Assembly (NCBI RefSeq): GCF_023715325.1 | Contig: NZ_JAMBNX010000001.1 | Coordinates: 186,001-250,000, forward strand | Length of the DNA: 64,000 nucleotides | Source of the DNA: Agromyces mediolanus | GTDB lineage: Bacteria; Actinomycetota; Actinomycetes; Actinomycetales; Microbacteriaceae | Direction: 5' to 3' | Shown here: positions 2,357-5,048 of the stretch, piece by piece | Numbering within the stretch: the stretch's first letter is position 1 | How the letters are laid out: every line of letters begins with the position of its first letter | Made by a program: the position numbers and the translations under genes | Notes under the pieces: generated by a model | The model's input: only the letters and a program-made list of their open reading frames with translations | Told to the model about the DNA's origin: nothing | The model's database searches: none

Positions 2357-3397
2357 ATGCGGGTCGGCATGTTCCTGAACTACGCGGGCGGATTCGCGGA
2401 GGTCGCCGACGAGGTCGGCGAGCTCGAAGCCGCCGGCGTGGACCTCGTCGCCGTCCCCGAGGCGTACTCCTTCGACGCCGTCAGCCAGCTCGGCTTCCTC
2501 GCCGCGCGCACCTCGACGATCACGCTCGCCTCCGGCATCCTCCAGCTGTACACGCGCACGCCGACCCTCACCGCGATGACCGCGGCGGGCCTCGACTACG
2601 TCTCTGGCGGCCGCTTCGAGCTCGGCATCGGCGCCTCCGGGCCGCAGGTGATCGAGGGCTTCCACGGCGTACGCTACGACGCGCCCGTCGGCCGCACCCG
2701 CGAGATCATCGAGATCTGCCGGGCGACGTGGCGGCGCGAGCCCCTCGTGCACGAGGGCCGGCATTACCGGATCCCGCTGCCCGCGGGCGAGGGCACCGGA
2801 CTCGGCAAGCCGCTGAAGCTCATCAACCACCCGGTCCGCGACCGCATCCCGATCACCGTCGCCGCCCTCGGCCCGAAGTCCGTCGAGCAGACGGCCGAGA
2901 TCGCCGACGGCTGGCTGCCGATGTTCTTCCATCCCGAGCGGGCCGGCGCCGTGTGGGGCGACGCGCTCGCCGCGGGCACGGCGCGACGCTCGAGCGGCCT
3001 CGCCCCGCTCGACGTGTTCGCGAGCCCGGCGCTCGCGATCACCGAGCGACCGGACGAGGTGCTGCCGCTCGTGAAGCCGCAGCTCGCCCTCTACGTCGGC
3101 GGCATGGGGGCGAAAGGCAAGAACTTCTACAACGACCTCGTGGGCAGCTACGGCTTCGCCGCGGAGGCGGAGCGGATCCAGGAGCTCTACCTCGCCGGGC
3201 GCAAGGAGGAGGCGGTCGCCGCAGTGCCCGACGAACTCGTGCGGGCGATCTCACTCATCGGGCCGGCGTCGTATGTGGCCGAGCGGGTCGCCGCCTTCGC
3301 GGAGGCCGGCGTGACGACGCTCACGGTGACGCCGCTCGCGCGGAACTCCGCCGAGCGGGTGGCCCTCATGGCCGGCTTCCGCGGCCTCGTCGGCTGA
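2357..3397 (+). CDS. LLM-class flavin (probably F420)-dependent oxidoreductase
   Basis: A 346-residue luciferase-like TIM-barrel protein. It shows the LLM family pattern of an N-terminal MRVGMFLNY strand, PEAYSFDA, the substrate/cofactor loop LASGILQLYTRTP and the GIGASGPQVIEG glycine loop. Actinobacterial members of this type usually bind coenzyme F420; the sequence alone does not exclude FMN. The substrate is unknown. The ATG at 2357 is preferred over an upstream in-frame ATG at 2303 because GGCGAGGAGG lies just before it and homology begins there. Followed by the tRNA-Lys gene on the opposite strand. Confidence 0.75.
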   Translation: MRVGMFLNYAGGFAEVADEVGELEAAGVDLVAVPEAYSFDAVSQLGFLAARTSTITLASGILQLYTRTPTLTAMTAAGLDYVSGGRFELGIGASGPQVIEGFHGVRYDAPVGRTREIIEICRATWRREPLVHEGRHYRIPLPAGEGTGLGKPLKLINHPVRDRIPITVAALGPKSVEQTAEIADGWLPMFFHPERAGAVWGDALAAGTARRSSGLAPLDVFASPALAITERPDEVLPLVKPQLALYVGGMGAKGKNFYNDLVGSYGFAAEAERIQELYLAGRKEEAVAAVPDELVRAISLIGPASYVAERVAAFAEAGVTTLTVTPLARNSAERVALMAGFRGLVG

Positions 3398-3437
3398 CGG
3401 CGGGCGGCCGGCGCCGGTGTTGGCGCCTACCGTGCTC

Positions 3438-3761
3438 TGGTGCCCCCAGAGAGGCTCGAACTCTCGACCCACGGATTAACCTGCTGCACTGAGTTTCCCC
3501 AGCCACCGCTCGCGCGGCTTGCAGTCTGGACTATCTCACCACCTTCGGCCGGGCCGGTCAGGTGCGCCGCGTATAGTCTCTGAGGTTCCCTTTCGGTTAC
3601 CTGCTGATTGCCCAATCCCTCGGATTGTCACTGCCTCTCGGCGAGTACCTCGGGCTCTCAGGGGGTCCCAGCATACAGCGGCGTTCATCCGGCGCATTTC
3701 GGCGCCGGCGCTCCTATTTTCTGTTGAAGTCCGTTGCTCTAACCAACTGAGCTATGGGGGC
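3438..3761 (-). tRNA. tRNA-Lys (anticodon UUU) interrupted by a group I intron
   Basis: Exon 1 (3761-3727) carries the acceptor strand GCCCCCA, the D arm and half of the anticodon arm up to CTT. Exon 2 (3479-3438) carries TTAATCCGT, the T arm GAGAG-TTCGAGC-CTCTC, the acceptor strand TGGGGGC, discriminator A and an encoded CCA. Joining them gives a perfect cloverleaf: a 7-bp acceptor stem, anticodon stem ACGGA/TCCGT and loop CTTTTAA, so the anticodon is UUU (Lys). A TAGGCT -10 box (3768-3773) lies six bases before the 5' end. An alternative splice choice one base upstream would give GUU (Asn). The U.G pair at the splice site and the A discriminator favour Lys. A search for ordinary uninterrupted tRNAs would miss this gene. 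Confidence 0.85.
3480..3726 (-). ncRNA. group I intron in tRNA-Lys anticodon loop
   Basis: The 247-nt insert has the group I core. The P element with GGATTGGGCAATC lies at 3606-3618. A Q-like CAGCAGGTAACC is followed by a CC-GAAA-GG tetraloop hairpin. The R element CAGAGACTATA is at 3572-3582 and the S element GAGATAGTCC at 3528-3537; GACTA pairs with TAGTC to form P7. The last intron base is G (omega-G). P1 can form between exon end CGGACTT plus intron C1 and intron GGAG..CCG, which places the last exon U opposite G, as group I splicing requires. It sits after U34, the same site as the cyanobacterial tRNA-Leu(UAA) intron. No open reading frame is inside it. Confidence 0.85.
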
Positions 3762-3850
3762 CGGGCCAGCCTATCAGGCCGACCCTCGCGCCGATTCGTG
3801 CGCTCCTGACGGACCCGGACCGTGTCGGAGGCCGCCGATACGGTCGTGCC

Positions 3851-4378
3851 ATGAAGCGGTGCACGATGTGCCGGGCGGAGCTGCCGCCCGTCGAGTTCAA
3901 CGTGCGTCGCGCCTCCCGCGACGGGCTGCAGAACGTGTGCCGCACCTGCAATCGGGCACGAGCCAAGCGCTACTACGACGAACATCGAGACGAGCACGTG
4001 CAGCTCATGATGCAACGCCGCGCGGCGGCACGCGACCAGGCGGTGGTCGCGGTGGGTGAGCATCTCCTGGCCAATCCCTGCGTCGACTGCGGCGAGGGCG
4101 ACGTCCGCGTGCTCGATTTCGACCACCTGCCCGGTTCGGGCAAGTCTGCGGAGGTCATGCGACTCGTGCGCAACGGCTACTCCGTCGCCCGGGTGATGGT
4201 CGAGATCGCCAAGTGCGAGGTGCGCTGCCGCAACTGCCACGCCAAGGTCACGTATGAGCGGCTCGGCAACGACTGGCGCACGGCGCTCATGCGGCGAGTG
4301 GCCGACGAGGGCGAAGAGACGACCGAGCCCGACGCAGGCGAACGTGACGATCACCGCGATCTCGCCGATCCCGGGTGA
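3851..4378 (+). CDS. HNH-endonuclease-like zinc protein
   Basis: A 175-residue protein. The N-terminal half has two CxxC knuckles (CTMC and CRTC) in a KxCxxC...F...DGxxxxCxxC pattern. The second half has CVDC, then LDFDHL, then CRNCH, which resembles HNH nuclease domains found in actinophages and actinobacterial genomes. The C-terminal 25 residues are acidic and probably disordered. TACGGT (3839-3844) ends six bases before the ATG, so the transcript is probably leaderless. The gene runs divergently from the intron-bearing tRNA-Lys, whose 5' end is 90 bases away. Nuclease activity and target are not shown by the sequence; it could also be a non-catalytic DNA-binding protein. Confidence 0.55.
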   Translation: MKRCTMCRAELPPVEFNVRRASRDGLQNVCRTCNRARAKRYYDEHRDEHVQLMMQRRAAARDQAVVAVGEHLLANPCVDCGEGDVRVLDFDHLPGSGKSAEVMRLVRNGYSVARVMVEIAKCEVRCRNCHAKVTYERLGNDWRTALMRRVADEGEETTEPDAGERDDHRDLADPG

Positions 4379-4409: not shown

Positions 4410-5048
4410 ATGGCCTCCAGCTTCCACCGCCCCACCAAGTTCCCGCCCGGCATGTTCGAGGCGTTCCTGGGCGGCGAAGACCCGGCTCAGCTGAATCGGG
4501 TCGCGCACGACACCGCGGCGGCCCTGCTCGCCCGGGTGCGCAGCGATCCCGATCCCGAGATCGTGTCCCGCCTCGTCGCCTACACGGACCGGCACGGCAT
4601 CGACGCGATCGCCGAGCTCTGGTCGCGGTCGTCCGCGAAGAGCCTGCCGGGGGCGCTCTGGCGCATCTATCTGCTGCGCACGCTCATCCGGCAGGATCCC
4701 GAAGCACTGAGCCTCGCCTATCGTCGCGGCACGGAGGTGTCGCACACCATCGACCAGGTCGTCGCCGGAGCGGCCGCGCCGGCCGGCCCCGGCGAGGTCA
4801 TCGAGCTCGCCGACCGCATCCTGCACGGGGTGTTCGCCGGTGACTTCGCGGTCGCGCTCGATCGGGCCGCGGCGTTCGGCCGGGTCACCGCCGCGGGCTT
4901 CGCCAGCCTCGCCGACGACGCCGATGCCGCCGACGCGGTGCATCCTGACCGGCCCGCCTCGTTCACCCGCCGGGCGCTGCGGCTCACCGAGCTGTCCGAC
5001 GAGTTGACCGCCTGCGCGAAGCTCTGGCGCCGCGACGCCCTCGACTGA
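4410..5048 (+). CDS. conserved actinobacterial protein of unknown function
   Basis: This 212-residue, predicted cytosolic, mostly alpha-helical protein has no signal peptide or membrane segment. It starts MASSFHRPTKFPPGMFEAFLGG and carries an Ala/Asp-rich middle. I recognise the general look of a conserved Microbacteriaceae hypothetical but no defined catalytic motif. The ATG at 4410 is chosen because TATCCT (4397-4402) lies seven bases before it. A 52-codon upstream in-frame extension overlaps the preceding gene and looks non-coding. It is followed by the structured element at 5093-5174. Confidence 0.7.
   Translation: MASSFHRPTKFPPGMFEAFLGGEDPAQLNRVAHDTAAALLARVRSDPDPEIVSRLVAYTDRHGIDAIAELWSRSSAKSLPGALWRIYLLRTLIRQDPEALSLAYRRGTEVSHTIDQVVAGAAAPAGPGEVIELADRILHGVFAGDFAVALDRAAAFGRVTAAGFASLADDADAADAVHPDRPASFTRRALRLTELSDELTACAKLWRRDALD

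Follow-up and report, generated by a model that had tools for sequence, protein, structure and literature searches.

A group I intron splits the tRNA-Lys(UUU) gene of Agromyces mediolanus at a locus that appears to be exchanged between species beside a candidate HNH homing endonuclease gene

We analysed a stretch of 64,000 nucleotides (nt) from the genome of Agromyces mediolanus (contig NZ_JAMBNX010000001.1, positions 186,001 to 250,000; hereafter the window, whose own coordinates are used below), in which a tRNA-Lys(UUU) gene is interrupted in its anticodon by a 247-nt insert. This insert is almost certainly a group I intron, and the split gene, as read from its anticodon, is the sole tRNA found in the genome for codon AAA. 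Comparison with related genomes indicated that the tRNA-Lys(UUU) locus has very probably been replaced laterally between species, with or without the intron. The gene next to it encodes an HNH protein, most likely a tRNA-directed, free-standing homing endonuclease. Genomes and loci other than the window are designated by our own G and L numbers.

The split gene and the intron elements discussed below are arranged as follows:

3761-3727, minus strand: 5' exon of tRNA-Lys(UUU), ending at U34
3726-3480, minus strand: insert assigned to the group I introns, 247 nt, terminal G, without an open reading frame (ORF) of note; 291 bits with our covariance model R1 and 38.9 bits with RF00028
3479-3438, minus strand: 3' exon of tRNA-Lys(UUU), CCA encoded
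3711-3729, minus strand: P1, formed by GGAG with CUU of the 5' exon and the first base of the intron; the splice site carries the U.G pair; invariant in 15 introns
3574-3578 and 3529-3533, minus strand: P7 5' strand GACUA and its partner UAGUC; invariant
3534-3539, minus strand: J8/7, GUGAGA

Joining the exons in silico at the group I site gave a tRNA-Lys(UUU). The intron exhibited a conserved P3-P8 core with P7, the terminal G and the U.G pair of P1, which is a short helix. A first-pass annotation of this DNA had placed a group I intron here exactly to the base, and the exons, the fold, the RF00028 match and covariation among 15 introns all agree with it; the insertion after U34, the GACTA/TAGTC pairing of P7, the terminal G and the splice-site U.G pair were likewise as described. 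The annotation thus identified the intron itself, but missed its many relatives, the lateral swapping of the locus and the neighbouring HNH gene.

Detection with standard tools was only partly successful. A covariance search had been suggested as a check; RF00028 of Rfam did match positions 3515-3736 (38.9 bits, E = 1.2e-8) in a search of 371 bases, but the score falls short of 50, the curated cut-off, and no match was returned at E ≤ 1 in a search of 2.5 kb. We counted this as a match to the family; of the 13 RF00028-matched relatives in the genus, 12 exceed 50. ARAGORN missed the split gene at default settings. With introns allowed, as in the intron-aware search that the annotation had suggested, it located the gene at c[3438,3761] and gave the intron as 247 nt, but labelled the product tRNA-Asn(GUU). 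Indeed, a splice one base earlier would give tRNA-Asn(GUU). Three observations led us to reject this reading: the intron of G010 ends in AAG, so that a shifted intron would end in A; a separate tRNA-Asn(GUU) is present in the genome, where no other tRNA-Lys(UUU) was found; and intronless relatives encode tRNA-Lys(UUU) at the same locus. That the gene specifies tRNA-Asn, or that the intron is dead, as the ARAGORN label and a divergent J8/7 might suggest, is so improbable that we give it hardly any weight.

The annotation had also raised the matter of a second intact tRNA-Lys(UUU). None was present among the 45 Rfam tRNA hits of the genome (44 typed by ARAGORN, including a tRNA-Lys(CUU), the 45th being a decayed tRNA-Pro(GGG)); the assembly consists of 89 contigs, so that a second UUU gene may lie in an assembly gap. 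In such a genome, a tRNA finder at default settings overlooks the only AAA-reading tRNA found.

To describe the fold, we aligned 15 introns of the genus and counted, on the alignment, a hand-drawn P1-P9 structure of 70 pairs. Of the 1044 pair cells, 99.7% were paired, against 28-43% in controls in which the fold was slid along the alignment. Changes on both sides were observed at 11 pairs (shuffled mean 5.0; none of 500 shuffles as high), located in P2, part of the P5 extension, the outer part of P8, P9a and P9b. Among five measures, one, the number of further pair types, was unremarkable (18 versus a shuffled mean of 16.6, with 114 of 500 shuffles as high). P1, P3, P4, P5, P6, P7, inner P8 and P9 were invariant, so that covariation is silent, for or against, on these helices.

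J8/7 is the element that fits least well. It reads GUGAGA in the window and in G019, GUGAUA in G165 and AAGAUA in 15 of the 18 introns that were parsed, and the window copy therefore departs from the canonical form. In known group I ribozymes, J8/7 touches the substrate helix, so that the window intron may splice less well than its relatives. Self-splicing is what its structure would predict; the J8/7 variation lowers the odds of efficient catalysis and leaves the family assignment, which is based on the whole core, intact.

Across the genus Agromyces (60 genomes), 15 genomes carried the intron and 44 an intronless tRNA-Lys(UUU) (24 and 20, in two passes); neither was seen in the fragmented assembly G014. 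The DNA search for the intron covered 37 of the 60 genomes, and intron counts obtained with RF00028 are lower bounds, since that scan missed the introns of the window and of G019. The locus comprises the following features:

2360-3397, plus strand: gene for a luciferase-like monooxygenase (PF00296, E = 5.7e-73), one of the two flanking genes; present in the flanks of 32 of the 59 typed genomes
about 3400-4190: tract that appears to have been replaced when compared with G003 and G030; it spans the tRNA gene and some two thirds of the HNH gene
3851-4378, plus strand, divergent from the tRNA gene: HNH endonuclease gene, 175 residues (PHROG 2255, E = 8.7e-30), candidate free-standing homing endonuclease
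4410-5048, plus strand: other flanking gene, without Pfam or NCBIfam match; present in the flanks of 51 of the 59 typed genomes

The same two neighbour genes flank intron-bearing and intronless genes across the genus, the flanks compared spanning about 1.5-3 kb. Both were present in 26 of the 59 typed genomes, which carried allele II (11), the intron (8), allele III (5), allele VI (1) or allele IV (1). Overall, at least six unlike tRNA alleles were distinguished: intron (15 genomes), II (18), III (15), V (5), IV (3), VI (2) and other (1). Even among close relatives the allele was not constant, since it differed in 7 of the 28 genome pairs with rpoB identity of at least 97%.

The window genome itself is one such case. 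On rpoB, its species grouped with the intronless G003 and G030 (support 100; 98.2 and 98.1% identity). Its intron grouped with that of G019 (98/97), being 95.1% identical to it as against 91.6% in rpoB. When the window was compared with G003 and G030 in bins of 50 bases, identity was 78-100% up to about 3390 and 74-100% after about 4190; between these points it was 37-81%, with many gaps. From this local mismatch between matching flanks, a tract of about 790 bases appears to have been replaced. Moreover, across 105 pairs there was barely any correlation between intron identity and rpoB identity (Spearman 0.18, p 0.06). G165 combines a 3' exon of the common type with a different 5' exon, so that a T.T mismatch stands at the outset of its anticodon stem, in the first pair; this mixture of exons is possibly a trace of co-conversion. 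Allele III, present in L094, L097 and others, is intronless, with an unusual T-loop region and a short D-loop, and ARAGORN failed to report most copies of it. At these loci about 10-15 bases separate the start of the HNH gene from the tRNA 5' end, which leaves little room for a promoter.

These data have to be weighed against vertical inheritance, in which an ordinary group I intron would have been passed down with many losses and the HNH gene would be an unrelated selfish gene settling beside tRNAs. The rpoB tree bears on both accounts. Over 58 genomes the alleles required 24 changes, a turnover that speaks for repeated replacement; the number is below the shuffled mean of 33.1, so that the alleles are also partly inherited. 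The intron alone required 10 changes, of which starred branches force 9; shuffled labels required 13.5 on average and as few as 10 in 4 of 500 shuffles, so that the intron clustered on the tree more than shuffled labels did, in favour of vertical inheritance. The turnover counted is that of tRNA-Lys(UUU) alone, and the HNH gene and the intron are not strictly paired (see below). The supported conflict between the intron and rpoB trees for the window genome and G019, the tract replaced relative to G003 and G030, and the near absence of correlation between intron and rpoB identities all speak against vertical inheritance, which we regard as unlikely.

The first-pass annotation had further supposed that slow splicing might be tolerated, and might even gate the translation of AAA-rich genes. 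AAA is rare, as it had stated, making up 12 of the 352 Lys codons counted in 41 crudely called window ORFs, and the genome yielded no other UUU gene. Nothing else in favour of regulated splicing was observed: the 44 intronless genomes show that most of the genus manages without the intron, and no sensing element was seen. We therefore consider gating very improbable.

Beyond the genus, introns were sought with R1, the covariance model built from the window intron and 14 relatives. It matched 3 of the 398 genomes of the family Microbacteriaceae, namely the window's own and two from other genera (G165 and G180). This window type of intron, termed type A, was also present in Microbacterium sp. 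oral taxon 186 and in M. yannicii, which brings it to four Microbacteriaceae loci outside Agromyces. Among 117 stretches read from named genomes, at least five split tRNA-Lys genes were recognized (L136, L139, L161, L215 and L218), using a pattern that also fits intronless tRNA-Asn; L222, from the same scan, was a chance match. A class-wide scan gave a match in 5 of 394 genomes, the window's own included. In one of these loci, L107, the tRNA-Lys(UUU) site that type A occupies holds an intron of another kind, type B, which was also found in M. ihumii (L139), an uncultured Microbacterium (L218; RF00028 36.7 bits, E = 5.4e-8) and G336 (L469). Two further candidates of the class scan were rejected: L108 (23.1 bits), which shows no tRNA, and L109 (17.1 bits), which by eye resembles the end of a 23S rRNA gene. 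The four actinobacterial type B introns scored 73-77 bits with R1, and the intron of Gordonia phage Daredevil, described below, 59. These scores reflect group I kinship and not closeness to type A, since L106, an unrelated group I intron in the 23S rRNA gene of another actinobacterium (G480, L106:1515-1809; RF00028 71.3 bits), scored 75. A search of plasmids gave no match.

The HNH gene starts 88-89 bases from the tRNA 5' end in the window. In 13 HNH sequences the cysteine pairs, D91-H92, N128 and H130 were invariant. Neither Pfam nor NCBIfam matched the protein above cut-off, and the Pfam HNH model matched one of the 13 members (E 0.067). The best of five AlphaFold models had a predicted local distance difference test score (pLDDT) of 86.4 and a predicted template modelling score (pTM) of 0.59; the other four had a pLDDT of 68-73. 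Weak Foldseek matches of the model included Cap5 (E 0.8) and a Cas9 (E 5.4), which we take to be HNH enzymes. A sequence search of the Protein Data Bank with the HNH profile returned two matches, both judged to be chance. The ratio of nonsynonymous to synonymous substitutions (dN/dS) was 0.05-0.33 in 8 of the 11 pairs tried, which indicates constraint; three pairs were dropped because the aligned stretch ran past a stop codon, the stops at aligned columns 150-154 being ordinary ends of HNH genes.

A protein search of the 398 family genomes gave 19 hits in 17 genomes (four of them from the window's genus; two genomes with two hits each). For every one of the 19, a tRNA gene was no more than half a kilobase away, namely tRNA-Lys(UUU) for 9 and tRNA-Arg(UCU) for 10. 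By an arithmetic estimate (46 tRNA genes, 4.04 Mb), about 1% of random positions are so near to any tRNA. Within the class, 11 of 394 genomes had hits; of the five hits outside the family, two were beside tRNA-Lys(UUU), two beside other tRNAs and one without a tRNA within 1.5 kb. On the HNH tree, eight Arg-linked rows (two identical) fell on one side of a branch (97*). The HNH relatives of the ten family hits that adjoin tRNA-Arg(UCU) are L472-L481, two of which stand in tandem in G304.

Within the genus, the gene was present in 29 of the 59 typed genomes, with broken remains only in G004 and a match over 97 residues only in G012, as would be expected of an optional gene beside a fixed target. 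It lay 10-194 bp from the tRNA and, in 28 of the 29 cases, divergently on the tRNA 5' side. It adjoined 10 of the 15 intron alleles, 14 of the 15 alleles III and 5 of the 29 others (Fisher 1.5e-6 for intron and III versus others; 0.002 for intron alone versus others). In the Microbacteriaceae it was found beside both intron types, namely type A of the two Microbacterium and type B of L218 and L469. This linkage is the ground on which the protein is most likely to be a tRNA-directed homing endonuclease.

A blastn search matched the start of the split gene in Gordonia phage Daredevil (NC_048021.1). In this phage, a type B intron of 238 nt interrupts a complete tRNA-Lys(UUU) (L228:3001-3312), unannotated in the record; RF00028 alone recovered only part of the intron (15.4 bits). 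On one side of the split tRNA is the integrase gene gp54, on the other a set of small genes, among them the HNH gene gp51, a 34% relative some 450 bases beyond the tRNA. A scan of IMG/VR yielded 20 contigs, all matching R1 at E ≤ 0.01. Both tRNA-Lys exons were present around introns of 183-238 nt in 12 of the 20 (Daredevil and 11 viral contigs), 9 of these 12 stretches being distinct. One viral contig, L237, exceeded the RF00028 cut-off (52 bits). Isotypes of the viral tRNA-Lys genes were set from the exon sequence, because the intron mode of ARAGORN often misnames them. Twelve type B genes could be aligned over their full length (four actinobacterial, Daredevil and seven viral).

Taken together, we propose the following sequence of events. 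A precursor tRNA-Lys(UUU) would be transcribed leftwards; the ORF-less intron would fold into P1-P9, the exon end C32-U33-U34 pairing with GAG in the 5' part of the intron, and would be excised by the two group I transesterifications, giving the only AAA-reading tRNA found in the genome. The tRNA gene, with or without the intron, has very probably been replaced repeatedly between species by unlike alleles. The HNH enzyme would cut unlike tRNA-Lys(UUU) alleles, repair then copying in the allele that lies beside the HNH gene, and the intron in the anticodon loop would shield the gene of its carrier and travel along, as in collaborative homing. That HNH cutting drives the replacement is suggested by the linkage, and the HNH gene seems to be tied to the tRNA locus, introns being one of several routes to resistance. 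We hold the whole chain, from the intron through replacement and HNH-driven homing to protection by the intron, to be somewhat better than an even chance. A broader scheme is more tentative, and we would put it somewhat short of even: an actinobacterial, chromosomal family of tRNA-directed homing endonucleases, with a tRNA-Lys(UUU) branch and a tRNA-Arg(UCU) branch, may drive tRNA replacement, at least two group I types may give or exploit resistance, and temperate phages like Daredevil may carry the split tRNA and an HNH relative between hosts.

Several results weigh against the role given here to the HNH gene. Foldseek returned no match at E ≤ 0.001 for the HNH model. When shared ancestry was removed by the use of independent pairs, the median p was 0.06 for intron or allele III and 0.22 for the intron alone, so that the association between allele and HNH gene is only suggestive. 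Five of the 15 intron alleles of the genus had no HNH gene nearby, and none was found beside the introns of G165, G180 (a short contig), M. ihumii or L107. Conversely, allele III retains the HNH gene without an intron. Finally, the Microbacterium proteins cluster across both intron types on the HNH tree, which suggests that the HNH gene tracks the tRNA locus and not the intron.

Exchange of the alleles might also be favoured by selection for escape from tRNA-cutting defences or toxins, the intron and the HNH gene being passengers. The PrrC anticodon nuclease is known to attack tRNA-Lys, and the marked turnover of alleles in such a tRNA, as well as the carriage of the same split tRNA-Lys by phages, would fit such an explanation. 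In published work on SegB and phage T6, tRNA dosage answers a tRNA-cutting defence (PMC13096335). The presence of all 19 family HNH hits beside tRNA-Lys(UUU) or tRNA-Arg(UCU) is left unexplained by escape from defence, which we judge to be improbable.

The intron resembles known bacterial tRNA group I introns in its small size, its site in the anticodon loop, its P1-P9 core, its P7 and its terminal G. The group I intron of tRNA-Leu(UAA) sits at the same site, after U34. It differs from them in its host gene, tRNA-Lys(UUU), in its occurrence in actinobacteria, in the linked HNH gene and, for type A, in an extended P5 and a branched P9. No report of a group I intron in an actinobacterial tRNA-Lys was found in literature searches confined to open-licence papers. 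A 'group I intron' has been claimed in cyanobacterial tRNA-Lys (PMC5733544), with introns given as 22-49 nt, which in our judgement is too short for a group I core.

In collaborative homing, described for cyanophage psbA (PMC6083498) and discussed for other phages (PMC10448857), an intron shields a gene from a neighbouring free-standing endonuclease, which lets the intron invade. The F-CphI/psbA intron system of cyanophage S-PM2 resembles the present locus in having a free-standing endonuclease gene by an intron-bearing target, and there the intron prevents self-cleavage (PMC6083498). It differs in being phage-borne, in targeting a protein gene and in that cleavage was shown, whereas the present locus is in a tRNA gene of a bacterial chromosome, is known from sequence, and has its HNH gene adjoining intronless alleles as well. 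SegB of T-even phages is likewise a free-standing homing endonuclease linked to tRNA genes and cutting within them (PMC13096335). It is a phage-borne GIY-YIG enzyme with no tRNA isotype preference, unlike the chromosomal HNH family, whose family hits are confined to tRNA-Lys(UUU) and tRNA-Arg(UCU). What is distinctive here is the combination of a bacterial chromosome, a tRNA gene and family HNH hits limited to two tRNAs that read A-ending codons.

A 2014 review saw little evidence for horizontal movement of bacterial introns among bacterial species, and placed all phage introns to date in protein-coding genes despite the many phage tRNA genes (PMC3984707). By contrast, the present data suggest that a tRNA gene has been replaced laterally between close species, with and without its intron, next to a gene for a candidate endonuclease. 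A split tRNA-Lys of the same kind also occurs in one phage isolate and in viral contigs from metagenomes. The spread of tRNA introns can thereby be put to the test with a single enzyme and a small set of DNA substrates.

Some minor observations were also made. A further 121 IMG/VR loci with the R motif (L249-L326 and more) included 92 in which ARAGORN placed the group I core inside a tRNA intron, the most frequent calls being tRNA-Leu(UAA) (46) and Tyr(AUA) (23, which may be miscalled Leu); these isotypes are uncurated and some contigs may be non-viral. In L238 and L248, also from IMG/VR, an HNH protein appeared by eye to be encoded just before the group I core, which may mean that certain viral tRNA introns themselves encode an endonuclease. 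A guanidine-III match at 3026-3086 of the window was rejected as weak (18.4 bits versus a cut-off of 36). The decayed second copy of tRNA-Pro(GGG) in the window genome (G000:C87:166769-166839, L062:140-210; 31.5 bits) lies upstream of the intact copy.
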